Part shown: positions 6,068-22,253 of the stretch, piece by piece
Layout: every line of letters begins with the position of its first letter
Numbering within the stretch: position 1 is the stretch's first letter
Assembly: GCA_017623055.1 (NCBI GenBank)
Contig: JAGAPX010000026.1
Location: 62,001 to 126,000, forward strand
DNA from: Phascolarctobacterium sp.
GTDB taxonomy: Bacteria > Bacillota > Negativicutes > Acidaminococcales > Acidaminococcaceae
Length of the DNA: 64,000 nt
Direction: 5' to 3'
The notes under the pieces: generated by a model
What the model saw: only the letters and a program-made list of their open reading frames with translations
What the model was told of the DNA's origin: nothing
Database searches by the model: none
Made by a program: the position numbers and the translations under genes

Positions 6068-6087
6068 ATTTGTTTTAGGTGATACTT

Positions 6088-7056
6088 ATGACGACCTTGA
6101 TTGCCATTGTGGCAGGCTTCATTTTAGATTTAATATTTGGTGACCCTCATAGCTTGCCCCATCCCATTTGCCTTATTGGTAATTTTATTAGCTTTTTGGA
6201 ACGTAGCCTGCGGAAAATTTTTGGCTTTAGTAATAATGGCTTGCTTTTTGGCGGCGGAGTACTGGTGCTTATAGTAATCAGTACTTGCTTTGTGCTTCCT
6301 TACGCTCTGCTTTATTTGGCAGGAATGGTTAATCCGTGGCTTGCTTTTGCTTTGGAAACTTTGATGTTCTACCAAATTTTCGCTACCAAATGCTTACGGG
6401 ACGAAAGCATGAAGGTATATTACGCTTTGCAAAAGGGCGATTTAGATGAAGCTCGTTTGATGCTGTCTTGGATAGTTGGTCGTGATACGAAAAATCTTTC
6501 TGAAGCTGAGGTTACTAAGGGTGCGGTGGAAACCATTGCGGAAAATACTGCTGATGGGATTATTGCTCCGATGTTTTATATGTTCCTTGGTGGTGCGCCG
6601 TTAGCATTTTTGTATAAGGGTATCAACACAATGGATTCCATGGTTGGGTATAAAAATGAGAAGTATCTATATTTTGGACGTTGCGCTGCCAAATTAGACG
6701 ATGTGGCAAATTTTATTCCTGCACGCATTACAGGCTTGTTAATGATCGGGGCAGCCTACTTCTTAAATTTAGATGTTCAAGGTGCGTGGAAAACTTTTTG
6801 GCGAGATAGGTATAACCATTTAAGTCCCAATTCTGCTATGACGGAATCAGTTGCTGCTGGTGCATTGAACATTCAGCTTGGCGGTGGACATTTCTATTTT
6901 GGCAAGTGGGTTCATAAGGATACCATTGGTGATGATATTCGACCAGTGAAAGCGGAGGATATTGTTGCTACTAATAATTTGCTGTATATGACGGCGGTAC
7001 TTAGTTTAATTTTGTTTACGTTGATTTATTTATTAAGAATTTTTCTGAACGTTTAA
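6088..7056 (+). CDS. cbiB: Adenosylcobinamide-phosphate synthase CbiB (integral membrane)
   Basis: Attaches the aminopropanol (phosphate) linker to adenosylcobyric acid. 322 residues from the ATG at 6088 (preferred over GTG at 6079 because TAGGTG then lies at proper distance). Several hydrophobic segments; family blocks include LDLIFGDPHSLPHPI near residue 13, VGRDTKNLSEAEVTKGAVET, and AENTADGIIAPMFY. Immediately upstream of cobD, which supplies its linker substrate. Confidence 0.93.
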   Translation: MTTLIAIVAGFILDLIFGDPHSLPHPICLIGNFISFLERSLRKIFGFSNNGLLFGGGVLVLIVISTCFVLPYALLYLAGMVNPWLAFALETLMFYQIFATKCLRDESMKVYYALQKGDLDEARLMLSWIVGRDTKNLSEAEVTKGAVETIAENTADGIIAPMFYMFLGGAPLAFLYKGINTMDSMVGYKNEKYLYFGRCAAKLDDVANFIPARITGLLMIGAAYFLNLDVQGAWKTFWRDRYNHLSPNSAMTESVAAGALNIQLGGGHFYFGKWVHKDTIGDDIRPVKAEDIVATNNLLYMTAVLSLILFTLIYLLRIFLNV

Positions 7057-7071
7057 TAAAGGGTGAAAGAT

Positions 7072-8160
7072 ATGTACAAGTATGAACATGGTGGAGATGT
7101 TTATAGCAGTAAAGCTACAGCCGATGGAAAGCCGTATATAGATTTTTCTGCTAACATCAATCCTTTGGGATTACCTCTTGGTATAAAAGAAGCAGTGAAG
7201 TCTGCACTAAAAGATTGTGTGAATTATCCTGATCCATTTTGCCGAGAGTTGCGTGCTGCTACGGCAAATTATTTGCAGGTTGCAGAAGAAAATATTTTCT
7301 TTGGCAATGGTGCGGCAGATGTGCTTTTTCGTTTGGCGTTGGCATTGAAGCCTAAGAAGGCTTTACTTTTGGCTCCTACATTTGCCGATTACGAAAAGGC
7401 TTTACGTTCTGTGGACTGCAAAATCAATTATTATGACCTGCACCCGCAAAGAGATTTTAAGATTGGGAAGAGTATTTTGCGCGCCATCACTTCCACTACG
7501 GATATTGTTGTCATTTGCAATCCCAACAATCCAACAGGACAGCTTACAGATAGAGAGCTTCTGTTAAAAATTCTTAATAAATGTGTCGAAGTAAATGCAA
7601 AGCTTTTGATTGACGAATGCTTTATGGATTTCGTAGATGATGATAAGGCTTTCAGTATGCGTGATTTGCTGGAACAATATCCAAATCTTATTATTCTCAA
7701 GGCATTTACTAAAACTTTTGCCATGCCTGGTATTCGTTTAGGCTATTGTCTAAGCGGTAACCAAAAGCTTCACGAAAAATTATATCAGTGCGGTCAAGAC
7801 TGGAGCGTTTCCTGTTTGGCACAGGAGGCTGGCAAGGCAGCGTTGCAGGAGCAGTATTATTTGCGTGCATCTTTTACGCTCGTTAAGGAAGAAAGACAAT
7901 ATCTGAGCAATCAACTGCGTAATCTAGGTGCAGAGGTTTATGGGTCAGAAGCAAATTATATTTTCTTCAAGATGGAGCGAGTAAAAAATTTAGATGTTTT
8001 ATTACGGGAGCAGGGATATTTGATTCGTTCCTGTGCCAATTATCATAATTTGAATGAAGACTATTATCGCATTGCGGTTAAGACAAGGGTTTTAAACCGC
8101 GGTTTGATTAAAGCAATTAAGGAAGTAAAGAAAAATGCGCTCTTTGCTGGTAATTATTGA
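7072..8160 (+). CDS. cobD: L-threonine-O-3-phosphate decarboxylase CobD (PLP enzyme)
   Basis: Makes (R)-1-amino-2-propanol O-2-phosphate, the linker used by CbiB. Fold type I aminotransferase-like protein of 362 residues; visible blocks are the N-terminal HGG (residues 4-6), FSANINPLG, CNPNNPTGQL and the PLP-lysine region AFTKTFAMPGIRLGY. ATG at 7072 was chosen over GTG at 7063 since AAAGGG sits 8 bases upstream of the ATG. The last 26 bases overlap the next gene in another frame, an overlap long enough to suggest coupling. Confidence 0.9.
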   Translation: MYKYEHGGDVYSSKATADGKPYIDFSANINPLGLPLGIKEAVKSALKDCVNYPDPFCRELRAATANYLQVAEENIFFGNGAADVLFRLALALKPKKALLLAPTFADYEKALRSVDCKINYYDLHPQRDFKIGKSILRAITSTTDIVVICNPNNPTGQLTDRELLLKILNKCVEVNAKLLIDECFMDFVDDDKAFSMRDLLEQYPNLIILKAFTKTFAMPGIRLGYCLSGNQKLHEKLYQCGQDWSVSCLAQEAGKAALQEQYYLRASFTLVKEERQYLSNQLRNLGAEVYGSEANYIFFKMERVKNLDVLLREQGYLIRSCANYHNLNEDYYRIAVKTRVLNRGLIKAIKEVKKNALFAGNY

Positions 8161-9259
8161 TGGCTTGGGAGACGATTCCTTTGCGGCGTGGCAGGGGAGA
8201 ACGCCTTTTGAGAAAGCCAGACATAAAAATATGGACGCACTTATTGCCAAAGGCTGCTTGCAGGAAATAAGCATTTGCGAAAATGACATAGTACCTGAAA
8301 GTTGTAGCTGTATTTTGCGGTTGTTAGGAGTTGCGAAGGAAGATATGCCCCAGAACAGGGCTTATCTTGAACTTCTTGCCAATGGACGTGACGTTTCGGA
8401 ATATGAAATGGTTTTGCGTTGTAATCTTGTAGCAGTGGACGAAGCTGGATATTTGGCAGGGTTTAACGGAATGGGTTTAACCGTAGTGCAAATGGAAGAA
8501 GCGTCTAAAATTTGCAATGATATTTTGAAGGAGATAGAGTTCATTCATCTGTCGGAGTACCGCAACCTGCTGATTATGAGCAAGGAAGCCAAGGTACTGA
8601 ACTGCAAAATAAAACCTCCACACGAAAGCGTAGGGGAGCATTTGGAAGAACTTCTTGCTGATTTAAAGAGCAGTTCTTTAGCTGTAAAGTATTTTTTGCA
8701 AAAAGCAGAGGAGCGTCTGAAAAAATTTACTCACGAAGGATTGCACTATGCTCTTTATCCGTGGGGTGCTTCTCAAAGGCAAACGTTGCCCAGCTTTTAC
8801 AACCTACATAAACTTAGGGGGGCTGTTGTCTGTAAGGCAGAGATTGCCCGTGGTATAGGCAAAGCCTTGGGCATGGAAGTGCGTATTCCCCATGGGGCAA
8901 CAGGTGATGTAGATACAGACCTTCGCTCTAAGGCTAAAGCAACTGTAGAATTATTACAGCAGTACGATTTTGTAGTAACCCATTTTAATGGTACGGACGA
9001 GGCAGCTCACCGCTATGATGCTTTAGAAAAGGTTGCTTTCATTGAGCGTATTGATAAGGAATTTTTAGGTACTGTGCTGGATGCGGTGCGGGAGCCTTTG
9101 AAAATAGTAATTTGTGGCGACCACGTAACTAGCTCTGTGACAGGTAAGCACGATAGGGGAGCTGGTCCCGTGATTAGCGCTTTTTCTGACGGACGAGGCA
9201 CGGTTAAATTAGAAAATTATCGAGATATTATAAAATTTTTAATGAAAGAGTGTGATTAG
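8135..9259 (+). CDS. ApgM-family (alkaline phosphatase superfamily) phosphomutase/phosphotransferase-like protein in the B12 operon
   Basis: 374 residues resembling archaeal-type cofactor-independent phosphoglycerate mutases and the ApgM-like proteins once proposed as homoserine kinases. Metal-site blocks typical of the superfamily are visible: IDGLGDD (residues 8-14), the GRTPFEKA segment near the phospho-acceptor position, [10 protein letters not shown], and [19 protein letters not shown] near the C terminus. It overlaps cobD by 26 bases and is followed by cbiP, so a B12 role is inferred: alpha-ribazole-phosphate phosphatase replacement, or supply of threonine phosphate to CobD. A glycolytic mutase is less likely here. 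Confidence 0.75.
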
Positions 9260-9260
9260 T

Positions 9261-10784
9261 ATGGCAAAGGTTATTATGGTGCAGGGGACAATGTCCAATG
9301 CAGGTAAAAGCTTAGTAACAGCAGGCTTGTGCCGTGTGTTTAACCAAGACGGCAAAAAGGTTGCACCCTTTAAATCTCAAAATATGGCTCTTAATTCCTT
9401 TATTACTAAAGAGGGAGCAGAAATGGGACGCGCTCAAGTAGTGCAGGCAGAAGCTGCCGGCATTGAACCTAGCGTACTTATGAACCCTATTCTTTTGAAA
9501 CCCACAAGTGACAGTGGTTCACAAGTTATCGTCAACGGCGAGCCCATTGGTACTATGAGCGCAGGAGAATATTTTAAAATGAAGCACACCCTGCGTCCGA
9601 AGATTATGGAAGCCTACAACAAGCTGGACGAAGATTTTGATGTGATTGTCATTGAAGGAGCAGGCAGTCCTGCGGAAATCAACATTAAAAAAGACGACTT
9701 CGTGAATATGGGTATGGCAAAGATGGCAAAAGCTCCTGTGCTTTTAGTAGCAGATATTGATCGTGGCGGTGTCTTTGCTTCCATTTATGGGACGTTAATG
9801 CTTTTGGAAGAAGATGAACGGGAATTAGTAAAAGGTGTAATCATCAACAAGTTCCGTGGTGATGTAGAAATATTGCGCCCTGGTTTGAAGATGATTGAGG
9901 ATAAAACAGGTGTCCCCATTGTAGGCGTGTTGCCAATGCTTAAAGTTGATATTGAAGATGAGGACAGTCTTTCTGAACGTATCAGTGGGCATAGCGAAGT
10001 GAAGCTAGTAGATATTGCCGTAATTCGTTTGCCCAGAATGTCTAACTACACTGACTTTAATGTTTTTGAACTTATCCCTGGTGTGTCCTTGCGTTATGTA
10101 TCTAGCGTGCGAGAATTAGGCAGCCCGGATATGATTATTATCCCCGGAACCAAGAACACCATTGGCGATTTGAAATGGTTACGTCAATGTGGGTTAGAAG
10201 CTTCTATTTTAAAGAAAGCTAATGATGGAACGGTAGTCTTTGGCATTTGCGGTGGTTACCAGATTTTAGGCAAAAACCTTTCTGACCCCTTAGGTGTTGA
10301 AGATGGTGGTGACGTTCCCGGTATGGGACTTCTTGATGCGGAAACTGTTTTTATCGAAAAGAAACGTACCATTCAAATGGAAGGAAAGTTTGGCGAAGTA
10401 CAAGGTGTCTTTGCTAATTTAAGTGGTAAGCCTTTGTTTGGCTATGAAATTCACTCCGGTGTAACTAATATATATAATGAAGGAAACTCTTTGACAAGTA
10501 TCAAGCCTATTCACGAAGAGGGCGAGATTATGGCGGAAGGTGCGCAAACCGTAAGTGATAAACTTAATGTTTATGGTACCTATGTGCACGGAGTTTTTGA
10601 CTGCGAAGGCATTGCTGCAGGTATTGTAGAAGCTCTGCTGGAAAAGAAAGGTTTGAAGCCGGAAGACATTAAGATTATAAATTTTGCTGATTACAAAAAG
10701 CAGCAGTACGATATTTTGGCAGATAGCATCCGTACAAATCTTGATATGGAAAAGATTTACGAAATTTTGGAAGCTGGTGTGTAA
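9261..10784 (+). CDS. cbiP: Cobyric acid synthase CbiP (CobQ)
   Basis: Amidates the b, d, e and g side chains of adenosylcobyrinate diamide. 507 residues: N-terminal ATPase domain with [10 protein letters not shown] (P-loop, residues 7-16), C-terminal glutaminase domain with nucleophile Cys in [11 protein letters not shown] and His in YVHGVFD. ATG at 9261 used; an alternative GTG at 9252 overlaps the preceding stop. Abuts cobO with no gap. Confidence 0.94.
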
Positions 10785-11315
10785 ATGCAGGACGGTGGCT
10801 TGATTCATATTTACTGCGGTGACGGCAAGGGTAAGACTACTGCCGCCTTAGGTTTAACTGTGCGCTGTGCAGGTCATGGTAACAAGGTGCTTTTTGTACA
10901 GTTTTTAAAAAGTTGGGTAACAGGCGAGCTGAATAGCCTGAAGCTTTTTGAAAACGTGGAAGTGTTACGTGCTAAGGAAACTGCAAAATTTACCTTCCAG
11001 ATGACGAAAGAAGAAAAAGCACAGGTTACTAAAGACCATTTAGCATTGTTTGAAGTTGTGAAAACTAAATGCGTCAGCGAAAAAATAGACTTGCTTATTT
11101 TAGACGAGATTGTTGGTGCTTGTGATAGAGGAGTCTTTGATAAAGAAGCCTTGGTAGATTTTTTAAAGAATAAGCCTCAGGAATTAGAGGTTGTGATGAC
11201 GGGGCGTAATCCTTTTCCGGAATTGATAGAGCTTGCCGATTACGTGTCAGAAGTTTGTAAACGTAAGCACCCCAAGGATAAAGGAATTATGGCTCGTAAA
11301 GGAATAGAAAGGTAG
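10785..11315 (+). CDS. cobO: Cob(I)alamin/corrinoid adenosyltransferase CobO (BtuR type)
   Basis: Transfers the adenosyl group of ATP to Co(I) corrinoids. 176 residues with the characteristic early P-loop YCGDGKGKTTAALG (residues 8-21), LLILDEIVGACDRG and VMTGRNPFPELIELADYVSE. Starts on the base after the cbiP stop, so the two are coupled. Lysine-rich C terminus is usual for the family. Confidence 0.93.
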   Translation: MQDGGLIHIYCGDGKGKTTAALGLTVRCAGHGNKVLFVQFLKSWVTGELNSLKLFENVEVLRAKETAKFTFQMTKEEKAQVTKDHLALFEVVKTKCVSEKIDLLILDEIVGACDRGVFDKEALVDFLKNKPQELEVVMTGRNPFPELIELADYVSEVCKRKHPKDKGIMARKGIER

Positions 11316-11323
11316 TGTAAGAA

Positions 11324-11953
11324 ATGGAATTACAAAATGTTTTGCCTGCGGATATTGAAAAGCGCAGTATGGAAATTATTGGCGAAGAATTGGGTCAAAT
11401 ACATATTGACGAAGAAAAACTGGACATTGTAAAACGTGTTATCCATACTTCTGCAGACTTTGACTACGCGCGCACCTTACTTTTTTCTGAAGGTGTAGTT
11501 GAAAAAGCTTTGGAAGCTTTAAAAAAAGGTGCAACCATCGTAACCGATACTAATATGGCTTGTACCGGTATTAACAAAATGGGCTTGAATAAACTTGGCG
11601 CGAAGGCAGTATGCTTCATGGCAGATGCTGACGTGGCGAAACGTGCCAAAGAAGCTGGTTCTACTCGTGCAGCAGCTTGCATGGAAAAGGCTTGTGAAAT
11701 TGAAGGTCCTGTTATCATTGCCGTAGGCAATGCTCCTACCGCGTTAGTTCGTCTTGATGAACTGGTTAAGGAAGGCAAGATTAAACCGGAGCTGGTAATT
11801 GGTGTACCTGTTGGTTTTGTCAACGTGGTAGAATCTAAGGAAATCATTATGCAAACTGGCGTGCCTTACATTGTAGCGAGAGGTCGTAAGGGCGGTAGCA
11901 ACGTGGCTGCTGCAATTTGTAATGCGCTTATCTACAAATTAATTGAAAGATAA
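11324..11953 (+). CDS. cbiC: Cobalt-precorrin-8 methylmutase CbiC
   Basis: Moves the C11 methyl group to C12, giving cobyrinate. 209 residues, normal size; key blocks are VKRVIHTSADFDYA (with the active-site His), TDTNMACTGINK and VGNAPTALVRL, then IGVPVGFVNVVESKE. Last gene of the operon: a hairpin with a T run follows after 12 bases. Ring genes CbiD, CbiL and the cobaltochelatase, and late genes cobU/S/T, are not in this window. Confidence 0.94.
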   Translation: MELQNVLPADIEKRSMEIIGEELGQIHIDEEKLDIVKRVIHTSADFDYARTLLFSEGVVEKALEALKKGATIVTDTNMACTGINKMGLNKLGAKAVCFMADADVAKRAKEAGSTRAAACMEKACEIEGPVIIAVGNAPTALVRLDELVKEGKIKPELVIGVPVGFVNVVESKEIIMQTGVPYIVARGRKGGSNVAAAICNALIYKLIER

Positions 11954-11965
11954 ATTTTAAAAGAC

Positions 11966-11997
11966 TCTTGTTCGAAATGAGCAGGAAGTTTTTTGAG
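11966..11997 (+). terminator. Probable intrinsic terminator of the cobalamin operon
   Basis: An 8-bp stem (11966-11973 with 11979-11986, including G-U pairs, 5-base loop) is followed by AGTTTTTT. It lies just after the cbiC stop. Confidence 0.6.
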
Positions 11998-12089
11998 GAC
12001 AGAGCAAGCTTTTTGTTTACTGTTTCCTGTTAAAAACTTTACACTTATTTGCCGAATTAAATCTTGAAAAACAAAATATTGCATTCTAC

Positions 12090-12118
12090 TTGACTGTTGT
12101 ACACGAAAAGAGTAGAAT
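12090..12118 (+). promoter_or_regulatory. Sigma-A-type promoter of the aro leader/operon
   Basis: TTGACT (12090-12095), 17-bp spacer, TAGAAT (12113-12118): five of six matches in each hexamer with ideal spacing. A 7-bp inverted repeat, ATTCTAC (12083-12089) and GTAGAAT (12112-12118), brackets the promoter and could be an operator. Expected start of transcription is near 12125. Confidence 0.8.
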
Positions 12119-12173
12119 TACCACAATAGCTTTTGAACACAAAGGCGTAATCTATTTTTGCAGGTGAATTAAA

Positions 12174-12275
12174 ATGGACATTGTTTTGAAAAACACTGCA
12201 GTTGAATACGGCTACTTTGCACCGGTCTTTAGAAACTACTTTAGCACCGGCTTTTTTGCTTGCCAAAATTCATAA
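12174..12275 (+). CDS. Aromatic-rich leader peptide of the aro operon (33 aa)
   Basis: A 33-codon frame with a ribosome site (GCAGGTG, 12160-12166) begins about 50 bases after the predicted transcription start. Residues 12-28 read YGYFAPVFRNYFSTGFF: three Tyr (TAC) and five Phe (TTT) codons in 17. It precedes a strong terminator and then the DAHP synthase, TyrA and PheA genes. This is the architecture of classical translation-coupled attenuation, where scarce charged tRNA-Tyr or tRNA-Phe stalls the ribosome and favours readthrough. A short CCGGT/ACCGG stem (12222-12226 with 12246-12250) lies inside the coding part. Function is inferred; the codon enrichment is seen directly. Confidence 0.75.
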   Translation: MDIVLKNTAVEYGYFAPVFRNYFSTGFFACQNS

Positions 12276-12305
12276 TGCAGTTGTATCGTAAACAGTGCCT
12301 TTTTA

Positions 12306-12325
12306 GGTGATAGGTTTTAATCACC
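12306..12325 (+). promoter_or_regulatory. Leader RNA hairpin between leader peptide and attenuator terminator
   Basis: GGTGAT (12306-12311) pairs with ATCACC (12320-12325). Just upstream GCCTTT (12297-12302) can pair with AAGGGC (12346-12351), the left arm of the terminator, enclosing this hairpin; that is a possible antiterminator. Pairing was judged by eye only. Confidence 0.4.
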
Positions 12326-12345
12326 ACAACAGATATGTTTTTTAC

Positions 12346-12379
12346 AAGGGCTCTCTTACGAGAGCCCTTTTTAATTTTA
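12346..12379 (+). terminator. Strong intrinsic terminator in the aro leader (attenuator)
   Basis: Perfect 10-bp stem (12346-12355 with 12360-12369; AAGGGCTCTC and its complement), TTAC loop, then T-rich TTTTTAATTTT when the last stem bases are counted. It sits about 70 bases past the leader-peptide stop and about 130 bases before aroF, so operon transcripts must read through it. Confidence 0.85.
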
Positions 12380-12506
12380 AGCGAGCGGCGATACATTACC
12401 TAGGGAGGTAAATAATCGTGGTGGTAAGTTTAAAGAAAAATACTAAAAGCATCATCTGCATAGTAAAATTTTAAGCTTACATGAACAACAAAGGAGAGAA
12501 ATTTTT

Positions 12507-13520
12507 ATGGTAATCGTATTCAAACCCAATGCACCCCAAGAAACTAAAGCTGGTATTAAACAAAAACTTGAAAATCAAGGCTATATGATAAATGAAATTA
12601 CCGGTATCGGTAATACTATTTTCGGTATTATTGGTGACACCAGTGCGCTAGATATTAACCAACTGCGTATTTATGATTGCGTAGAAAAAGTTCTGCGTGT
12701 ATCCGAACCTTTCAAACGTGCTAACCGTGCTTTCCATCCGGAAGACAGCATCATCAATGTTGGCGGAGTTCCCATTGGCGGTCGTAAGATTCAAGTTATG
12801 GCAGGTCCCTGCTCCGTTGAAAGTGAAGAACAAGTAATCGCAGTTGCTAAATCCGTAAAAATGGGCGGCGCAAGCTTGCTTCGTGGTGGCGCGTTCAAAC
12901 CCAGAACTTCCCCCTACAGCTTCCAAGGCTTGAAAGAATTAGGTCTTGATTATCTGAAAGCTGCTCGCGAAGAAACCGGTCTTCCCATCGTAACTGAAAT
13001 TATGAGCGCTGATAAAATTGAACGCTTCGTAGAAGACGTTGACGTAATTCAAGTAGGCGCACGCAATATGCAAAACTTCGAGCTTTTGAAAGAGCTGGGC
13101 AAAATCCGCACTCCTATTTTGTTGAAACGTGGTCTTTCTGCAACTATTGAAGAATGGATTATGTCTGCAGAATATATTATGGCTGGCGGTAACGAAAACG
13201 TTATCCTGTGTGAACGTGGTGTTAGAACTTTTGAAACCTTCACCCGCAACACTTTGGACTTGAGCGCAATCCCCGCAGTTAAAAAATTGAGCCATTTGCC
13301 GGTAATCGTTGACCCGTCTCACGCAGCAGGCTTGTGGTGGATGGTAGAACCCTTGGCAAAAGCAGCAGTAGCTGTTGGCGCTGACGGTTTACTCATTGAA
13401 GTACATAATGATCCTGAACACGCAAAATGTGACGGCGCACAGTCCTTGAAACCGGAACGCTTTGCACATCTCATGGGCGAACTGAAAGGCATCGCTCAAA
13501 TCGTAGGTAGAGACCTGTAA
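12507..13520 (+). CDS. aroF: DAHP synthase, type I-beta with N-terminal ferredoxin-like domain (copy 1)
   Basis: Condenses phosphoenolpyruvate and erythrose-4-phosphate, the first shikimate step. 337 residues: ferredoxin-like (FL) regulatory domain (about 1-65) and TIM-barrel catalytic domain from about residue 90, with AGPCSVES, GGAFKPRTSPYSFQG and VDPSHAAG. The layout is that of the Thermotoga maritima enzyme. Remembered Tyr-binding positions His29 and Ser31 of that enzyme are Asn29 and Ile31 here, unlike copy 2, so feedback specificity may be altered. Start supported by AAAGGAGAG. Confidence 0.94.
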   Translation: MVIVFKPNAPQETKAGIKQKLENQGYMINEITGIGNTIFGIIGDTSALDINQLRIYDCVEKVLRVSEPFKRANRAFHPEDSIINVGGVPIGGRKIQVMAGPCSVESEEQVIAVAKSVKMGGASLLRGGAFKPRTSPYSFQGLKELGLDYLKAAREETGLPIVTEIMSADKIERFVEDVDVIQVGARNMQNFELLKELGKIRTPILLKRGLSATIEEWIMSAEYIMAGGNENVILCERGVRTFETFTRNTLDLSAIPAVKKLSHLPVIVDPSHAAGLWWMVEPLAKAAVAVGADGLLIEVHNDPEHAKCDGAQSLKPERFAHLMGELKGIAQIVGRDL

Positions 13521-13533
13521 TTTTGTAGCATTT

Positions 13534-13607
13534 GTAGTATTGTAGAAGCACAATTTAAAATTGTCTAGGTTAAGCATTCGCTTTAGCTATAGAGTAGTAT
13601 TGTAGAA
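13534..13607 (+). repeat. 14-bp direct repeat between the two aroF genes
   Basis: GTAGTATTGTAGAA occurs at 13534-13547 and again at 13594-13607, exactly 60 bases apart, with further TTTGTAG units around it. A 15-bp palindrome-like element (ACAATTT-A-AAATTGT, 13551-13565) lies between. Function unknown; possibly a relic of the gene duplication. Confidence 0.6.
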
Positions 13608-13637
13608 TTTGTAGGATAGTAAAGGAGCGAAAAGATT

Positions 13638-14651
13638 ATGATTATCGTATTTAAACCTAATGCACCCCAAGAGGCTAAGCTCAAAGTAAGAGCAAAATTG
13701 GAAAACCATGGCTTCGTCATTCATGAAAGTAATGGTTTGAACATTACCTTGTATGGCATTGTTGGTGACACCAGCGCTTTTGACATGCGCACTTTGATTG
13801 CAGATGATTGCATCGAAAAAATTATGCGCGTGCAAGAACCCTTTAAGCGTGCCAACCGTATGTTCCATCCGGAAGACAGCATTGTTAATGTGGGCGGAGT
13901 TCCCATTGGTGGACGCAAGATTCAGGTTATTGCTGGTCCCTGTTCTGTTGAAAGTATGGAGCAAGTTACAAGCGTTGCAAAATCTGTAAAACTTGGTGGC
14001 GCAACCTTAATGCGTGGCGGTGCCTTCAAACCCAGAACTTCTCCCTACAGCTTCCAAGGTTTAAAAGAGCTTGGGCTTGATTACCTCAAAGCTGCTAAAG
14101 AAGAAACCGGTTTGCCAATCGTAACAGAGATTATGAGCGCAGATAAGATTGAACGCTTCGTAGAAGACGTTGACCTTATTCAAGTAGGCGCGCGTAATAT
14201 GCAAAACTTCGAGCTTTTGAAGGAGCTTGGTAAAATCCGCACTCCTATTTTGCTGAAACGTGGTCTTTCTGCAACCATTGAAGAATGGATTATGTCCGCA
14301 GAATACATTATGGCTGGTGGTAACGAAAACGTAATTTTGTGTGAGCGTGGTATCAGAACCTTTGAAACTTTTACCCGCAATACTTTAGATTTAAGTGCAA
14401 TCCCTGCGGTGAAAAAGCTGAGCCATTTGCCGGTAATTGTTGACCCCAGTCATGCGGCAGGTTTGTCCTGGATGGTAGAGCCTTTGGCAAAAGCAGCAAT
14501 CGCTGTTGGTGCAGATGGTCTAATTATAGAAGTACATAACGATCCTGAACACGCTTTGTGCGATGGTGCACAATCACTGCGACCGGAAACCTTTGCTCAT
14601 CTGATGGGCGAACTGAAAGGCATTGCGCAAATCGTTGGTAGAGATTTGTAA
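13638..14651 (+). CDS. aroF: DAHP synthase, type I-beta with N-terminal ferredoxin-like domain (copy 2)
   Basis: Tandem paralogue of the gene before it, the same 337 residues long and almost identical in the catalytic barrel; most differences lie in the FL domain (residues 1-65). It retains His29 and Ser31, the positions remembered as contacting tyrosine in the T. maritima enzyme, so Tyr-sensitive feedback is plausible. AAAGGAGCG precedes the ATG. Copies 1 and 2 may be isozymes with different inhibition, as AroF/AroG/AroH are in E. coli (unrelated regulatory design). Confidence 0.93.
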   Translation: MIIVFKPNAPQEAKLKVRAKLENHGFVIHESNGLNITLYGIVGDTSAFDMRTLIADDCIEKIMRVQEPFKRANRMFHPEDSIVNVGGVPIGGRKIQVIAGPCSVESMEQVTSVAKSVKLGGATLMRGGAFKPRTSPYSFQGLKELGLDYLKAAKEETGLPIVTEIMSADKIERFVEDVDLIQVGARNMQNFELLKELGKIRTPILLKRGLSATIEEWIMSAEYIMAGGNENVILCERGIRTFETFTRNTLDLSAIPAVKKLSHLPVIVDPSHAAGLSWMVEPLAKAAIAVGADGLIIEVHNDPEHALCDGAQSLRPETFAHLMGELKGIAQIVGRDL

Positions 14652-14672
14652 TATATAAAGGAAGAAAAATTT

Positions 14673-15737
14673 ATGATAATCGTATTTAAACCCAACGCTC
14701 CTGAGGAAGCTAAGTTAAGAGTTAGAGTACAATTAGAAAATCAAGGCTTCATTATTCATGAAAGTAAGGGCGCCAATATTACCTTATTCGGTATCGTAGG
14801 TGATACCAGTAATTTTGATGCTACTCCCTTTATGGAAGATGAAGCTGTTGAGCAAGTGGTAGAGATTACCAAGCGTGGTAGAAGCACCAAGTGGGAACAG
14901 CTAAAGTTCGCTATTATCGGAATGGGGCTTATAGGTGGCTCCTATGCCAAGGCGCTTCGTAATTTGGGCGTAAAAAATATTATTGCCGTGGAAATAGATA
15001 AAGAGGTTTGCCTGCAAGTACAACGCTTGGGGCTTGCCAATCTTGTTTTGACGGAACCCAACGAAGCCTTACGAGAAGCAGACGTAATTATTTGCGCTGT
15101 GTACCCGGAAAGCATTGTGGAATTTTTGCGTAACAATGTGCAGTATTTTAAGGAAGATGTTTTGATTACAGATGTTTCCGGTATTAAGGGCACGCTGACG
15201 AGGGACGCACACGCAGAGCTGAAGGTGGGGATGGAGTTTATCTCCGGTCACCCGATGGCAGGTCGTCAAGGCAGTGGCTTAGGTATGAGCGAAGCAGAAA
15301 TCTTCCGCGACGCTAACTACATTATCGTTCCCGAAAAGCACAACCGCGAAGACACTATTCAATGGCTGGAAAAATTTGCCATGGCTTTAGGTTGTCGCAA
15401 TACTGTAAGAGTAACTCCGGAAGAACACGATAGAATTATTGCCTATACCAGTAATCTTACCCACGTAACAGCAGTTGCTCTGATGAATAGCATTTCCTAC
15501 AATGATAAAACTAAATTTTTCGTGGCAGGCAGCTTTAAGGATGGCTCCCGCGTTGCGGATATTAACCCGGAACTGTGGTGCAGTTTGTTCCTTGCCAATA
15601 AGGAAAAGGTTGCCGACGAAATTGATAAATATATTGAACAGCTTGACCTGTGGCGCAAGGCTTTGCGTGCAGGTGATGGCGAGCAGATGAAGGACATGAT
15701 GCGTGTTGCTGCTGCCAGAAGAAAGGAACTCTACTAA
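14673..15737 (+). CDS. tyrA: Prephenate dehydrogenase TyrA fused to an N-terminal DAHP-synthase-type ferredoxin-like domain
   Basis: NAD(P)-dependent oxidative decarboxylation of prephenate to 4-hydroxyphenylpyruvate. 354 residues, longer than a typical 280-300-residue core. Residues 1-60 (VFKPNAPEEAK..., ENQGFIIHESKG) are clearly homologous to the FL domain of the two upstream aroF genes and keep His29/Ser31; the NAD-binding loop IIGMGLIGGSYAKAL begins near residue 74, followed by SGHPMAGRQGSG. There is no C-terminal ACT domain, so the FL domain probably replaces it as Tyr sensor. No internal stop or frame break separates the parts. The stop overlaps the aroB ATG (TAATG). Confidence 0.92.
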   Translation: MIIVFKPNAPEEAKLRVRVQLENQGFIIHESKGANITLFGIVGDTSNFDATPFMEDEAVEQVVEITKRGRSTKWEQLKFAIIGMGLIGGSYAKALRNLGVKNIIAVEIDKEVCLQVQRLGLANLVLTEPNEALREADVIICAVYPESIVEFLRNNVQYFKEDVLITDVSGIKGTLTRDAHAELKVGMEFISGHPMAGRQGSGLGMSEAEIFRDANYIIVPEKHNREDTIQWLEKFAMALGCRNTVRVTPEEHDRIIAYTSNLTHVTAVALMNSISYNDKTKFFVAGSFKDGSRVADINPELWCSLFLANKEKVADEIDKYIEQLDLWRKALRAGDGEQMKDMMRVAAARRKELY

Positions 15738-16801
15738 TGAAGAAAATTCATGTTGATTTAGGAAAACATGCTTATGATATAGAAATTGGTGCTGGCTTGT
15801 TGCCAACTATTGGGGCGAAGGTTGCTGCCCTCGTACCCAAGGCAAGTAAAGCGGTTATCGTCAGCGATACCAACGTTGCCCCCTTGTACGGCGAAGCTTT
15901 GCAGAAAAGTTTGACGGAAGCTGGCTTGCCTGCTACTATCGTTACCATCGAAGCGGGTGAGCAAAGCAAGAACATGCAGGTGCTTAGTAACGTGCTGGAG
16001 CAAATTGCAGAAAGTGGTTTGACCCGTAGTGACGTGCTGGTAACTTTAGGTGGCGGTGTTGTAGGTGATTTAGGTGGCTTTGCTGCAGCAAGCTTTATGC
16101 GTGGCATTGCCTTTGTCCAAGTTCCTACTTCCCTCCTTGCGCAGATAGATAGTAGCGTTGGCGGTAAGGTTGCCGTAGATTTAAAGGCTGGCAAAAATTT
16201 GGCAGGCGCCTTCTACCAACCTAAAGGCGTGTTCATCGACACGGATTTACTTGCTACACTGCCTACGCGCTTCTTGCACGACGGATTGGCAGAAGCAATT
16301 AAGTATGGCTGCATTCAAGACGAAGTTCTTTTCGACAAAATTGCCAACTACGAAAATGACGCAGAGCTTTTGGCAGATATCGGTAGCGTGGTGGCAACCT
16401 GTTGTGCGATTAAGGCTCGCATTGTAGAGCAGGACGAGTTCGATACTGGCTTGCGTGGTATCTTGAACTTTGGTCATACCCTCGGTCATGCGGTGGAACA
16501 ACACTACAGTTATGGTGAATATACCCACGGCGAAGGTGTTGCCATTGGTATGTACCAAATCACCAAACGCACGGAAGAACTTGGCATGACACCCGCAGGT
16601 ACTGCAGAAAAGATTGCTAACGTCTTGAAAAAATATGCTCTCCCTATTGAAGCTGGCGTGGAAAAGGCTTTGCTTCTTGATACAATGGCGAAGGATAAAA
16701 AGAAATCCGGTAACTCCATTACCTTGATTGTTTTGGACAAGATGGGTGATGGCAGATTACATAAAATAAATTGGCAGGAAGTGCCTAACTATTTGGGGTA
16801 A
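15737..16801 (+). CDS. aroB: 3-dehydroquinate synthase AroB
   Basis: Cyclises DAHP to 3-dehydroquinate with NAD and a divalent metal. 354 residues, usual length. Family blocks: TLGGGVVGDLGGFAAASFMRG (split by position, about residues 96-116), QVPTSLLAQIDSSVGGKVAVD, and the metal-binding NFGHTLGHAVEQ and HGEGVAIGM. Translationally coupled to tyrA by a one-base overlap. Confidence 0.95.
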   Translation: MKKIHVDLGKHAYDIEIGAGLLPTIGAKVAALVPKASKAVIVSDTNVAPLYGEALQKSLTEAGLPATIVTIEAGEQSKNMQVLSNVLEQIAESGLTRSDVLVTLGGGVVGDLGGFAAASFMRGIAFVQVPTSLLAQIDSSVGGKVAVDLKAGKNLAGAFYQPKGVFIDTDLLATLPTRFLHDGLAEAIKYGCIQDEVLFDKIANYENDAELLADIGSVVATCCAIKARIVEQDEFDTGLRGILNFGHTLGHAVEQHYSYGEYTHGEGVAIGMYQITKRTEELGMTPAGTAEKIANVLKKYALPIEAGVEKALLLDTMAKDKKKSGNSITLIVLDKMGDGRLHKINWQEVPNYLG

Positions 16802-16804
16802 ACC

Positions 16805-18109
16805 ATGGAAAAGATTAGAATCATTCCAACAAAATTAAAGGGAACAGTGCTGGCACCTTCTTCCAAAAGCATGGGACACAGGGAAATAATCTGTGCTGGC
16901 TTGGCAGAAGGGACTAGCGTTGTAGATAATATCAGTATGTCCAAGGACATTGAGGCGACTTGCCGTTGCCTACGTGCTTTGGGCGTAATTATTGAGGACA
17001 TGCCTAGCAAGTTTGTGGGGCGTAGTGCCCTGAAGGTAACAGGCACAGGAAAGTTAAGAGCAGCAGAAGCAGGCGCGGATTGTGGAGAATCCGGGTCTAC
17101 TTTGCGTTTCTTTATTCCTTTAGGTGCGCTCTTAGGTGAATCCTTTACTTTTACCGGTCACGGTAAATTGGTAAGCCGTCCCTTGAATGCTTACTACGAT
17201 ATTTTTGAAAAGCAAGGTTTAAAATACCAAACTGCGGAGGAAGGTCACCTGCCTTTAACGGTTAACGGAAGATTACAGGCTGGCTTGTACCAGCTTCCCG
17301 GTAATGTGAGCAGTCAATATGTAAGCGGTTTGCTTTTTGCTTTGCCCTTGTTGGAAAGTGATTCTGTTATTGAAATTACCTCTGAGCTGGAGTCTTCCGC
17401 TTATGTGGATATGACTTTGAGCTGTCTGAAAAAATATGGAATTGAAATTGTGAATGAAGATAATGCGCACCGTCGTTACCTTGTGCGTGGTGGGCAAAAA
17501 TATCAAGCTATGGATAGCAATGTTGAGGGCGATTGGTCCCAAGCAGCCTTCTGGACTGTGGGCGGTAGCTTGGGCGAGACAGTAATTTGCAGCGGCGTTG
17601 ACTACACTTCTCTGCAAGGTGATAAGGCAGTGGTTCCCATTATGGAAGGCATGGCTGCTAACATCAAAGTGCAGGGTACTGACGTAATAACTGAGGGTGG
17701 CAACACTAAGGCTACAGTTATTGACGCGGCAAATTGTCCTGACATTATCCCTGTGTTGACTGTACTTGCTGCTGTCAGCGAGGGAACAACAGAAATTATT
17801 AACGCTGGTCGCCTACGTATTAAAGAATGCGATAGGCTGGCGGCGGTTACTCAAGAGTTAAATAAATTGGGAGCAGATATCACAGAGCTTCCCGAAGGTT
17901 TGATTATTAAAGGCAAGCCCGAAGGCTTGCAAGGCGGAGCAGAGGTGGACGCTTGGAACGACCACCGCATTGCCATGAGCTTGGCAATTGTTGCGCAAAA
18001 ATGCACGGAGCCCTTTACTTTGACAGGGGCAAGCAGTGTACAAAAATCCTATCCTGAATTTTGGCAGGATTATAAATTAGTTGGCGGTAAGATTGAGGTG
18101 TTAGTATGA
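16805..18109 (+). CDS. aroA: 5-enolpyruvylshikimate-3-phosphate synthase AroA
   Basis: Transfers enolpyruvyl from PEP to shikimate-3-phosphate. 434 residues, two inside-out domains; visible blocks are APSSKSMGHRE (residues 16-26), GESGSTLRFFIPLG, and DWSQAAFW, with RIKECDRL and DHRIAMS in the C-terminal half. Starts 3 bases after aroB and overlaps aroC by 4 bases. Confidence 0.95.
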   Translation: MEKIRIIPTKLKGTVLAPSSKSMGHREIICAGLAEGTSVVDNISMSKDIEATCRCLRALGVIIEDMPSKFVGRSALKVTGTGKLRAAEAGADCGESGSTLRFFIPLGALLGESFTFTGHGKLVSRPLNAYYDIFEKQGLKYQTAEEGHLPLTVNGRLQAGLYQLPGNVSSQYVSGLLFALPLLESDSVIEITSELESSAYVDMTLSCLKKYGIEIVNEDNAHRRYLVRGGQKYQAMDSNVEGDWSQAAFWTVGGSLGETVICSGVDYTSLQGDKAVVPIMEGMAANIKVQGTDVITEGGNTKATVIDAANCPDIIPVLTVLAAVSEGTTEIINAGRLRIKECDRLAAVTQELNKLGADITELPEGLIIKGKPEGLQGGAEVDAWNDHRIAMSLAIVAQKCTEPFTLTGASSVQKSYPEFWQDYKLVGGKIEVLV

Positions 18110-19197
18110 GTGGAATTTACGGAATGAATATTAAAATGGCAATCTACGGTGAATCCCACGGTGCTTCCATTGGTCTTGTTATTGACGGTGTACCGCCTGG
18201 ACTTCAATTAGATTTAGCGCAAATAGAAAAAGAAATGGCTCGTCGCGCGCCGGGTAAGAACCAGCTTTCTACCCAACGCAAGGAAAGCGATAGCTTCGCT
18301 ATTCAAAGTGGCTTCTTTGAAGGCTACACCACAGGTACACCCCTGTGCGTAGTAATTAAAAATAGCGACCAACATTCCAAGGACTATAGTATTTTGAAAG
18401 ATAAGATGCGCCCTGGTCACGCAGATTACGCTGGCTTTGTACGTTATCAAGGCTTTAACGATTATCGTGGCGGCGGACATTTTAGCGGTCGCTTGACTGC
18501 ACCTTTGGTTTTTATTGGTACGGTTGCTAAGCAAGCGCTAGCGCAAGCAGGAATTTTAGTTGGCGCACACATTCTGCAAATTGCAGATATAAAGGAAGAA
18601 AACTTTAACCCCTTGGGTATTGAAGATAAAAAAATTGCAGAGCTTGCAGGAAAAGACTTCGCCGTTATGGACGATGTCATTGGCGAAAAAATGCAGGCAA
18701 AAATTTTAGAAGCTAAGGCTGAACTTAACAGCGTTGGCGGCGTAATCGAAGCAATGGTTACTAACGTGCCTGCTGGTTTAGGCGCTCCCTACTTTGATTC
18801 TGTGGAAAGCAGGCTGAGCCACGCACTCTTTAGCGTTCCCGCAGTAAAAGGCGTGGAATTTGGTGATGGCTTTGGCATTAGCGGAATGACTGGTGCTGAA
18901 GCTAATGACCAGCTTCATTATGAAGAAGGCAAGGTTGTTGCAGAGACAAATCACAACGGAGGGATTACTGGTGGCATTACCAATGGTATGCCTGTGATCT
19001 TTAGAGTGGCTATTAAACCGACTCCTTCCATCTCCCGTGAGCAAAAAACTATCAGCTTGCAGGAAAAGTGCGACACCACCTTGACCATTGTTGGCAGACA
19101 CGACCCCTGTATCGTACAACGAGCAGTGCCCGTCATTGAGGCAGTAACTGCTTGGACAATGTGGGATTTACTTTTAGAAGCTAAGAAATGGAAATGA
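18106..19197 (+). CDS. aroC: Chorismate synthase AroC
   Basis: FMN-dependent anti-elimination of phosphate giving chorismate. 363 residues; conserved blocks GESHGASIGLVIDG (N terminus), RRAPGKNQLSTQRKE, RPGHADY, FRGGGHFSGR-like DYRGGGHFSGR and RHDPCIVQRAVPV. Starts in the aroA stop (ATGA). Reduced FMN must come from elsewhere; no dedicated flavin reductase lies in the operon. Confidence 0.95.
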   Translation: MSGIYGMNIKMAIYGESHGASIGLVIDGVPPGLQLDLAQIEKEMARRAPGKNQLSTQRKESDSFAIQSGFFEGYTTGTPLCVVIKNSDQHSKDYSILKDKMRPGHADYAGFVRYQGFNDYRGGGHFSGRLTAPLVFIGTVAKQALAQAGILVGAHILQIADIKEENFNPLGIEDKKIAELAGKDFAVMDDVIGEKMQAKILEAKAELNSVGGVIEAMVTNVPAGLGAPYFDSVESRLSHALFSVPAVKGVEFGDGFGISGMTGAEANDQLHYEEGKVVAETNHNGGITGGITNGMPVIFRVAIKPTPSISREQKTISLQEKCDTTLTIVGRHDPCIVQRAVPVIEAVTAWTMWDLLLEAKKWK

Positions 19198-19201
19198 TAT
19201 T

Positions 19202-20320
19202 ATGGCAGAACTGGATTTAGAAGTTATCCGTAAAGAAATAGATAAGGTAGATAGACAGCTTGCCGCAATTTTGGAAGCACGTCTTGGTCTCGTAATGCAG
19301 GTTGCCGAATATAAAAAGGCAAAGGGCATGCCTGTAAAAGACAAGGCTCGCGAGGCAAAGGTTGTGGAAAAGGTAACTGGCTTCTTGGACAACAAGGATT
19401 ACGTGCCCGCAGTTGAGACCATTATGCATAGCATCATGGACGCTGCTTGCGTGCTGGAAGAAGCAGAACTGGCGAAGAACGCTAACCGTAATCTGAAAAT
19501 TGGCTGCTTCGGTGTACCGGGCTCCTTTACCCATCAAGCACTGGAAGATTATTTCGAGGGCAGAACTTACGAGCGCCAGCACTATAACCTTTTTGAAGAA
19601 GTGATTACTGCCGTAAGTAAGGGCGAAGTAGATTATGGCGTTGTGCCTATCGAAAATTCTTCTACGGGCGGTATTACGGAAGTGTACGACCTGCTCCGTA
19701 AATTTGATTGCAGTATCGTGGGTGAACGTTGCCTGAAAATTGAACAAAACCTTTTGGGTTACGGCGAAGCTACCTTGAACGATATTAAAAAAGTTTACAG
19801 CCATCCTCAAGGCTTGGCGCAAAGCAAAGAATTTTTCAAGGACCATCCTCAAATGGAAAAGATTCCTTATTACAGCACCTCTAAGAGTGCGGAAACCGTT
19901 GCTGAGCAAAAGGATATTACCCTTGCCGCTGTTGCCGGTAAAAAGGCAGCAGAGCTGTACGGCTTGAAAATTTTGGCAGAAAATATCAACTTTAATTCTA
20001 ATAACTCTACCCGCTTCGTAATTATCACTAAGGCTCCGGAAAAAGTTGCCGGTGCTAACAAGATTACCGTTGTTTTTGCGGTGAAGCACGAAGCAGGTTC
20101 TCTCTACAAAACCTTGGGACACCTTCATCATCGTGGCTTGAATATGCTGAACATTGAATCTCGCCCCATGGAAGGAAAATCTTGGGAATACTTCTTCCAC
20201 GTAGATTTGATGGGCAACTTGGATGACCCAGATGTTATTGAAGGTTTTGAAGCAGTACAAAATAATTGCACCTATTTCAAAATTTTGGGCAACTATCGTG
20301 CTGACGACCGAAAGGAATGA
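19202..20320 (+). CDS. pheA: Bifunctional chorismate mutase/prephenate dehydratase PheA (P-protein)
   Basis: Chorismate to prephenate to phenylpyruvate on one 372-residue chain. AroQ-type chorismate mutase (about 1-90; IRKEIDKVDRQLAAILEAR), prephenate dehydratase (about 98-275; GVPGSFTHQAL, PIENSSTGGI, NSTRFVII) and an ACT domain (about 285-365) with the Phe-binding ESRPM motif. So Phe feedback through ACT is likely here, in contrast with the FL domain on TyrA. Confidence 0.95.
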   Translation: MAELDLEVIRKEIDKVDRQLAAILEARLGLVMQVAEYKKAKGMPVKDKAREAKVVEKVTGFLDNKDYVPAVETIMHSIMDAACVLEEAELAKNANRNLKIGCFGVPGSFTHQALEDYFEGRTYERQHYNLFEEVITAVSKGEVDYGVVPIENSSTGGITEVYDLLRKFDCSIVGERCLKIEQNLLGYGEATLNDIKKVYSHPQGLAQSKEFFKDHPQMEKIPYYSTSKSAETVAEQKDITLAAVAGKKAAELYGLKILAENINFNSNNSTRFVIITKAPEKVAGANKITVVFAVKHEAGSLYKTLGHLHHRGLNMLNIESRPMEGKSWEYFFHVDLMGNLDDPDVIEGFEAVQNNCTYFKILGNYRADDRKE

Positions 20321-20324
20321 GATT

Positions 20325-21137
20325 ATGCAGTATGGTTTGTTAGGTGGCAAGCTGGGGCACAGCCTGTCTCCGAAAATTCATGAACTGTTTTTTAAATATA
20401 CTGGTCTTACTGGCAATTACGTCCTTTTGGAAACGGAGCTGGAAGCTTTGCCTGAAAGAGTAAAGGTTATGCGCAGTACCTACGCAGGTAGCAACGTAAC
20501 CATTCCCCATAAAATTGCTGTAATACCTTTGCTTGATAGCATTGCTCCCGAAGCCCAGGCTATTGGTGCTGTAAACACTATTAAATTTACGGAAGCAGGA
20601 GCCTTTGGCTACAACACAGATTACTTTGGCTTTGGAAGAATGTTGGAGTATAATGACATTGCCATTACTGGAAAGATTGCTGTAGTTTTGGGAAGCGGTG
20701 GCGCTGCCCGTGCGGTAATGAAATATTTGGCAGATAAAGAAGCTGAAAAAATTTATCTTGTTACTCGTGACGTTAGCTCCGTTGATAAACATTTTTTGGA
20801 AATTGCACCCGGTTGCCAAGTAATTGACTACGCAGAACTGGAAACTGTTAAGGGCGATGTAATTATTAACTGCACTCCCGTAGGCATGTACCCCAAAGTG
20901 GAAGCTTCTCCTGTAAGCGCAAAGGTTACTGCAAATTTTGAGGCAGCAGTTGATTTAATCTATAACCCTGCGGAAACAATGTTCCTGTGTCAGGCGAAGG
21001 AAGCTGGCAAGAAATACGTGAACGGTTTGTTCATGCTTGTGGCGCAGGCAGTGGCGGCGCAGGAGATTTGGCAAGGAAAGCAATATGACAGCGATTTGAT
21101 TGTGAAAATTATGGCTGACTTGGAGCGTAATATATGA
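20325..21137 (+). CDS. aroE: Shikimate dehydrogenase AroE
   Basis: NADPH-dependent reduction of 3-dehydroshikimate. 270 residues from the ATG at 20325, 4 bases after the pheA stop with AAAGGAATGA upstream; an upstream in-frame extension inside pheA is rejected. Blocks: GGKLGHSLSPKIHE (residues 5-18), SNVTIPHKIAV with the catalytic Lys, GAVNTI, and the Rossmann loop VLGSGGAARAV. Overlaps aroK by 4 bases. Confidence 0.94.
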   Translation: MQYGLLGGKLGHSLSPKIHELFFKYTGLTGNYVLLETELEALPERVKVMRSTYAGSNVTIPHKIAVIPLLDSIAPEAQAIGAVNTIKFTEAGAFGYNTDYFGFGRMLEYNDIAITGKIAVVLGSGGAARAVMKYLADKEAEKIYLVTRDVSSVDKHFLEIAPGCQVIDYAELETVKGDVIINCTPVGMYPKVEASPVSAKVTANFEAAVDLIYNPAETMFLCQAKEAGKKYVNGLFMLVAQAVAAQEIWQGKQYDSDLIVKIMADLERNI

Positions 21138-21634
21138 AGAACATTATTTTAATTGGTATGCCTGGTTGTGGAAAAACAACCTTTGGCAGAAAGTTAGCAG
21201 AAGAATTAGGACGAGACTTCTACGATGCGGACGAAGTATTGGTAATGAGGGAGCGTCGCACAATCGAAGACTTCTTTGCAGAAAGTGAAGCAGCCTTTCG
21301 TGAGGCAGAGACTCGTACGTTAAAGTATCTTGCGGAGATGGAAGGCGTAATTATTGCAACTGGCGGCGGGGCAGTGACCCGTCCCGAAAATATGGAACTG
21401 CTTTCTAAAAATGGAACCATCGTTTTCATTGACCGCAAGCCTGAAAAAATTTACGCGACTATCAACGATGTAGTGCGTCCCCTTTTGGCAGACGACAAGT
21501 TACGTTTGTTCAACCTGTATAATGATCGCATTGAGCTTTATAAGGAATACGCAACCTACATCATTGGCAACAATGGAGCGTCTGAAGAAACTGTGGAAAA
21601 ACTGCTGAAATATGTTAGAGGTGAACAGGAATGA
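21134..21634 (+). CDS. aroK: Shikimate kinase AroK
   Basis: Phosphorylates shikimate. 166 residues with Walker A GMPGCGKTTFGRKLA (residues 8-22), the DADE shikimate-binding segment (residues 32-35), EAAFREAE and the ATGGGAV loop. Coupled on both sides by 4-base overlaps (aroE and aroQ). Confidence 0.95.
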   Translation: MKNIILIGMPGCGKTTFGRKLAEELGRDFYDADEVLVMRERRTIEDFFAESEAAFREAETRTLKYLAEMEGVIIATGGGAVTRPENMELLSKNGTIVFIDRKPEKIYATINDVVRPLLADDKLRLFNLYNDRIELYKEYATYIIGNNGASEETVEKLLKYVRGEQE

Positions 21635-22071
21635 AGAAAATTTTAGTACTGAACGGACCCAACATTAATATGTTAGGTGTGCGTGAGAAAAATATTTATG
21701 GTCGCCGAGATTTCAAAAGCCTTTGCGCTTATATTGAATCTGCTGCTGCAAAATTAGGCGTGCATGTGGATTTGGTGCAAAGCAATTACGAGGGCGACAT
21801 TGTTACTGCAATCCAAAACGCTTACGGAATTTACGATGGCATTGTTATCAATCCGGCGGCGCTTACCCATTACAGCGTAGCAGTGCTTGATGCTTTGAAG
21901 GCTGTGAATATTCCTGCTATCGAAGTGCATATCAGCAATATTCACGCTCGTGAAGAGTTCCGTCATAAATCTGTAACTGCGGCAGGCTGCATCGGTCAAA
22001 TTTGCGGACTTGGTTTTGCAGGCTACGCTCTTGCGTTGGAAGCACTTGCTGTGTACCAAGGGGGAGAGTGA
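21631..22071 (+). CDS. aroQ: Type II 3-dehydroquinate dehydratase AroQ
   Basis: Dehydrates 3-dehydroquinate; type II dodecameric family. 146 residues with LNGPNINMLGVRE at the N terminus (catalytic Tyr follows in IYGRR), QSNYEGDIV, INPAALTHYSVAVLDAL and EVHISNIHAREEFRHKS. Last gene of the aro operon, followed by the 22094-22140 terminator. Confidence 0.95.
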   Translation: MKKILVLNGPNINMLGVREKNIYGRRDFKSLCAYIESAAAKLGVHVDLVQSNYEGDIVTAIQNAYGIYDGIVINPAALTHYSVAVLDALKAVNIPAIEVHISNIHAREEFRHKSVTAAGCIGQICGLGFAGYALALEALAVYQGGE

Positions 22072-22093
22072 AATTAAATAGTTGTGATAAATA

Positions 22094-22140
22094 AAAAACA
22101 GGATTTAACTTCGAGTAAGAGGTTAAATCCTGTTTCTTTT
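22094..22140 (+). terminator. Intrinsic terminator of the aro operon, identical to the one at 31283-31329
   Basis: AACAGGATTTAAC and GTTAAATCCTGTT arms around a CTTCGAGTAAGAG-type apical part, followed by TCTTTT. All 47 bases are repeated exactly after hsdR, so the type I restriction cassette is bounded by identical copies. It is near-symmetrical and may act on both strands. Confidence 0.85.
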
Positions 22141-22143
22141 TAT

Positions 22144-22181
22144 TTGCGTTGCTTGCGTTGCATATTGCGTTGCTTGCGTTG
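22144..22181 (+). repeat. Two 17-bp direct repeats ahead of hsdM
   Basis: TTGCGTTGCTTGCGTTG occurs at 22144-22160 and 22165-22181, separated by CATA. Each unit is itself two GCGTTG steps. The second copy abuts the hsd -35 region, so regulator binding or slipped-strand variation is possible. Confidence 0.75.
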
Positions 22182-22184
22182 TTG

Positions 22185-22213
22185 TTTTAGAAACGCAAAG
22201 GATGTGCTATAAT
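22185..22213 (+). promoter_or_regulatory. Promoter of the hsd cassette
   Basis: TATAAT at 22208-22213 with the extended -10 TG (22205-22206); a weak -35 (TTTTAG, 22185-22190) at 17-bp spacing, directly next to the 17-bp repeats. Confidence 0.65.
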
Positions 22214-22253
22214 TTTTATAAAGAAATTTTACTTTTAATTAGTGAGGATAATT

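Follow-up and report, generated by a model that had tools for sequence, protein, structure and literature searches.

A prephenate dehydrogenase with an N-terminal DAHP-synthase-type ferredoxin-like domain, a putative transferred tyrosine sensor, in Phascolarctobacterium

The tyrA gene and its aro operon

Within the window, the 64,000-nucleotide stretch of gut-bacterial DNA that was analysed, the tyrA gene is located on the forward strand at 14673–15737 and encodes, from an ATG start and in a single frame with no internal stop, a protein of 354 amino acids. Its first 66 residues (14673–14870) form a ferredoxin-like (FL) domain with a predicted β-α-β-β-α-β fold. This is followed by a junction (14871–14903), in which the end of the FL domain is joined to the former TyrA N-terminus, RSTKWEQLK (FRSTDWxxL in unfused relatives), and by a prephenate dehydrogenase core consisting of NAD-binding and helical dimerisation domains (14904–15734; assigned by Pfam and by fold similarity to 3ggg, 4wji, and 5uyy). 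The Pfam family of DAHP synthase ferredoxin-like domains, PF18152, matched residues 1–67 over profile positions 1–67 of 67, with an E-value of 1.7e-16 and a score of 60.2 bits against a curated cut-off of 27 bits. PF02153 (PDH_N; residues 92–241, E 5.6e-26) and PF20463 (PDH_C; residues 248–344, E 4.6e-21) also scored above their cut-offs, while the DAHP-synthase barrel PF00793 was absent by Pfam, the FL domain preceding PDH_N and PDH_C instead. An earlier note, made from the sequence alone, had described an FL domain followed by a dehydrogenase, and the exact coordinates, the single frame, and the three Pfam matches bear this out. The note's observation that a C-terminal ACT domain is lacking also held, as no ACT match was returned by Pfam and the chain stops 10 residues past PDH_C. 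Its premise that TyrA proteins are usually regulated by such a domain was too strong, however, since most TyrA frames in the family are about 290–312 amino acids long and have no ACT-like C-terminal extension. Residues H193 (in GHPMAG) and R293, which we take to be the catalytic histidine and the substrate arginine, align with those of the Bacillus anthracis enzyme, and a whole-genome search detected no other TyrA. When the TyrA FL was used as the query in the same genome, the only other matches were the two aroF genes (E 2.4e-23 for AroF2 and 7.7e-15 for AroF1), with 63% identity to the AroF2 FL over 65 residues, in agreement with the homology to both neighbours proposed in the earlier note.

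Both aroF genes are complete by Pfam and alignment, encode FL-bearing DAHP synthases, and lie directly upstream on the same strand. aroF1 (12507–13520) carries Asn29/Ile31 in its FL domain, and aroF2 (13638–14651), by alignment and tree the likely source of the TyrA FL, carries His29/Ser31 and is separated from tyrA by 21 bases. The AroF1 and AroF2 barrels are 93% identical and the FL domains 55%. In trees, the barrels tend to cluster by genus, which suggests gene conversion that homogenised the barrels while the sensors stayed distinct. The next gene of the operon, aroB (15737–16801, forward strand; open reading frame and translation), overlaps the tyrA stop, and the genes downstream of tyrA are, judged by their sequences, presumably aroB, aroA, aroC, a chorismate mutase-prephenate dehydratase, aroE, aroK, and aroQ. 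The chorismate mutase-prephenate dehydratase of the phenylalanine branch (19202–20320, forward strand) gave a weak C-terminal ACT match in a sequence test. In two related genomes, G106 (L077, 2994–3878) and G163 (L096, 1380–2246), a DAHP-synthase relative without an FL domain lies between aroF and tyrA; it lacks the metal-binding cysteine and other active-site residues, has a dN/dS of 0.17, and is likely a paralogue that selection maintains without catalytic activity.

Upstream of the first aroF (12174–12374), a short frame rich in phenylalanine and tyrosine, MDIVLKNTAVEYGYFAPVFRNYFSTGFFACQNS, was found on the forward strand at 12174–12275 as a candidate leader peptide, followed between this frame and aroF1 by an intrinsic-terminator-like hairpin with a T run (12348–12374, forward strand). 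The peptide is kept in nine related loci, namely L118 (325–441), L119 (1448–1558), L120 (1486–1596), L122, L124, L125, L126, L127, and L128, and a script located the terminator hairpin after it in five of these loci as well as in the window. An Rfam scan of 6000–24000 returned zero RNA families at the gathering threshold. Together, the putative leader peptide and the hairpin constitute a candidate phenylalanine/tyrosine attenuator for the aro operon that is conserved throughout Phascolarctobacterium.

Distribution and origin of the fusion

The order aroF1-aroF2-FL-tyrA was present in all four genomes examined of the window's genus, and the fused architecture was repeated in loci L033, L034, L035, L121, and L128, the last two belonging to further Phascolarctobacterium metagenome-assembled genomes (MAGs), G167 (L121, horse faeces) and G130 (L128, labelled S28M). 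As the same architecture occurs in six separate genomes, the fusion is real and an assembly artefact is ruled out. In G130 (L075/L128), a single aroF of the His29/Ser31 type precedes the fused tyrA, and the Asn29/Ile31 copy was not found. The nearest named relatives of the whole protein were roe deer gut Phascolarctobacterium MAGs (79–96% identity), from a scan of 84,980 named genomes with two peptide patterns only, which would miss divergent cases. Across the 59 family genomes given an FL search, no FL domain was found on TyrA in the other family loci read. Among the TyrA matches listed for 150 genomes of the class, and among those listed for 398 genomes of the phylum, the start lay at residue 32 at least, except in fusion-bearing genomes; both lists comprise the stronger matches, so that a distant fusion may have escaped them. 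Matches in Neomarinimicrobiota that seemingly spanned both FL and TyrA proved to be separate neighbouring genes and were discarded. The fusion is rare, and no earlier report of it was found in the open-licence literature, although a mention elsewhere or an InterPro architecture entry is possible.

A phylogeny of the FL domains, which the earlier note had proposed as a check, nested the TyrA FLs of the window's genus among that genus's own AroF2 FLs (98/95), as expected of a sensor captured from a neighbour. At the junction, the fused protein reads GRSTKWEQLKFAIIG, compared with FRSTDWxxLxFAIVG in unfused relatives. As the junction retains the old TyrA start, it was most likely a complete tyrA that received the FL; the 5' portion of aroF2 that encodes the domain would have been duplicated and the copy placed in frame with the start of this next gene. 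Taken with the homology and the tree, the TyrA FL of the window's genus most likely derives from the neighbouring AroF2.

The number of captures was considered separately. The similarity to AroF extends to AroF residue 83 in the G167 TyrA and to residue 65 in that of the window, and the linkers of the two proteins differ in length. In a tree of aroB and aroA combined, G167 and G130 group together (88/89) beside four unfused genomes (82/87), with the window's genus outside this group, so that the fusion requires two changes. The tree of the TyrA core requires three, but a scenario of three separate captures was dropped because two changes suffice on the aroB and aroA tree. One capture followed by one loss is equally short on that tree. 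This alternative is disfavoured by the 60 bases that precede the RST codons, since those of the unfused g9 genes match their counterparts in the unfused g11 genes and, for the most part, in the g6 genes (equally good shuffles 0–0.4%; one weak case, G126 against G053, 13%). The unfused g9 genes therefore look as if an FL domain had never been present, and this likeness and the aroB and aroA tree together make two separate captures the probable course of events. A single clade of all fused genes was not rejected by any tree (p-AU 0.079 for the TyrA core, 0.073 for aroB and aroA, and 0.344 for the FL tree, which is short and whose topology could be misled by gene conversion between neighbouring FLs).

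Fold, constraint, and residues 29 and 31 of the TyrA FL

As the AlphaFold2 model of the full chain matched dehydrogenases only (including 3ggg, 4wji, and 5uyy; Z 24–27 against solved prephenate and cyclohexadienyl dehydrogenases), the FL domain, which had a pLDDT of about 90 across most of its length in that model, was also modelled alone. It was predicted to fold (pLDDT 86) as strand-helix-strand-strand-helix-strand, and its best matches in the PDB were the FL-bearing DAHP-synthase structures 4grs, 1vr6, and 1rzm (Z 12.4, 11.5, and 11.2, with the next row at 8.9), an outcome in favour of the earlier note, which had also called for a structure prediction. Between genomes of the window's genus, dN/dS was 0.085–0.205 for the TyrA FL, 0.043–0.098 for the AroF2 FL, and 0.016–0.055 for the TyrA core. 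The TyrA FL is under purifying selection, its dN/dS being far under 1 in all six genome pairs, and its constraint is the weaker, as it evolves faster than both the AroF2 FL and the TyrA core.

The codons for His29-Glu30-Ser31 (14757–14765, forward strand) align with putative tyrosine-contact residues of the Thermotoga maritima DAHP synthase, whose own His29 and Ser31 we take to be those contacts. That the TyrA FL keeps this pair, as the earlier note had stated, was confirmed, and it is shared by five of the six fused TyrAs. Ser31 occurs in all six, His29 in five (Asp29 replaces it in G130), and the Asn/Ile pair in none. Family genomes with two complete aroF genes always carry one Asn29/Ile31 copy, the other having Ser31 with His29 or Asn29; the difference between the two aroF FLs at these positions had been missed at first reading. 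By these residues AroF2 and TyrA have one sensor type and AroF1 another. The earlier proposal of one sensor common to DAHP synthase and TyrA thus narrows to AroF2 (His29/Ser31) and leaves out AroF1 (Asn29/Ile31).

A possible tyrosine switch shared by AroF2 and TyrA

We consider it reasonably probable (about 65%), by analogy with the T. maritima enzyme, that the TyrA FL is a transferred DAHP-synthase sensor through which tyrosine controls both ends of the pathway. The domain's predicted fold resembles that of the type I-beta DAHP-synthase sensor. Tyrosine would bind where two FL domains meet, with His29 and Ser31 forming part of the pocket, and the paired domains would cap the TyrA dimer or put it under strain, lowering its prephenate dehydrogenase activity. 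A single tyrosine switch would then act at the entry step, through AroF2, and in the tyrosine branch, through TyrA, with AroF1 responding to something else, perhaps phenylalanine; this division is suggested by the sorting at positions 29 and 31 taken together with the effect of the T. maritima FL. In that enzyme, the active site becomes harder to reach once phenylalanine or tyrosine occupies the FL domain (PMC5526877), which favours the proposed switch. It is further favoured by the fusion in every examined genome of the genus, the clustering in the FL tree, the purifying selection, and the confident fold; by the residues kept at 29 and 31, with no Asn/Ile type among the fused domains; and by the fact that the protein lacks an ACT domain and is the sole TyrA found in its genome. 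The faster evolution of the TyrA FL, Asp29 in G130, and the loss of the AroF linker weaken it. The segment that joins FL to barrel in AroF (RVQEPFKRANRMFHP) is not kept in the fused TyrA, so any signal path from FL to TyrA must be new. Nor is an FL domain required for feedback, as several dehydrogenase structures that match the TyrA core were solved with tyrosine in place, and the cores 3ggg and 4wji bind it without any FL.

It was also considered that the TyrA FL might be mainly a docking part that pairs with the AroF2 FL in a mixed, possibly tyrosine-gated complex. FL domains of the T. maritima DAHP synthase pair upon ligand binding, and the two FLs here are 63% identical and encoded 21 bases apart in one operon. 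The TyrA FL has, however, drifted from that of AroF2 instead of staying alike, and docking as the main role is judged unlikely. A fuller version, in which TyrA and AroF2 would share inter-FL tyrosine pockets and tyrosine would assemble and shut a two-enzyme complex, as a transplant that evolved twice, is doubtful at best. The domain might instead sense another molecule, such as phenylalanine, tryptophan, or a pathway intermediate, or activate the enzyme rather than inhibit it; the T. maritima FL binds phenylalanine as well as tyrosine (PMC5526877, PMC6362186), and Asp29 in G130 would suit a different ligand. Against this, the fused domains retain Ser31 throughout and His29 in all but one, and the branch ends in tyrosine, leaving a different ligand or sign decidedly unlikely. 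It is quite improbable that the FL simply persists from a duplication and regulates nothing: its dN/dS reaches roughly threefold the AroF2 FL value and most relatives have a TyrA without it, but the values stay far below 1 in every pair, the frame is intact in six genomes, and two captures are favoured over one.

If the switch is real, tyrosine would close its own pathway at both ends by the same means, and with the fused TyrA and AroF2 it could be tested whether a single sensor sets two pathway steps alike. As some close relatives carry the FL and others lack it, and as the donor gene lies adjacent, the way in which an enzyme gains allosteric control can be tested directly. A putative tyrosine sensor that passed from one enzyme fold to an unrelated one would also be useful for enzyme engineering.

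Of the known systems, the type I-beta DAHP synthase of T. maritima (1rzm, 1vr6, 3pg9) resembles the fused TyrA in its homologous N-terminal FL, in His29/Ser31, and in the same predicted fold. Its FL, however, regulates a DAHP-synthase barrel, whereas that of TyrA sits on a dehydrogenase by a different linker. The top structural match of the TyrA FL model, 4grs, is an engineered FL-DAH7PS chimera from work in which an FL domain was reportedly moved onto an enzyme formerly without one. The fused TyrA appears as the natural counterpart of this laboratory transfer to an unregulated enzyme; the chimera is man-made and still a DAHP synthase, whereas here the recipient is another enzyme of the pathway. 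TyrA-ACT of B. anthracis (5uyy) likewise combines a TyrA core with a small amino-acid sensor of ferredoxin-like topology, but its ACT domain is C-terminal and of another family, unlike the N-terminal FL derived from DAHP synthase. In the parts consulted of Song et al. 2005 (PMC1173090), TyrA is described in fusions with AroQ, HisHb, EPSP synthase, ACT, and REG, and no FL or DAHP-synthase domain was found among them; with the present case, they show how often TyrA takes part in fusions within the aromatic pathway. The same parts raise the possibility that a leftover enzyme fragment might turn into a new TyrA regulatory domain. The gain of an amino-acid sensor by fusion is of an already known kind, here with an FL domain on TyrA.
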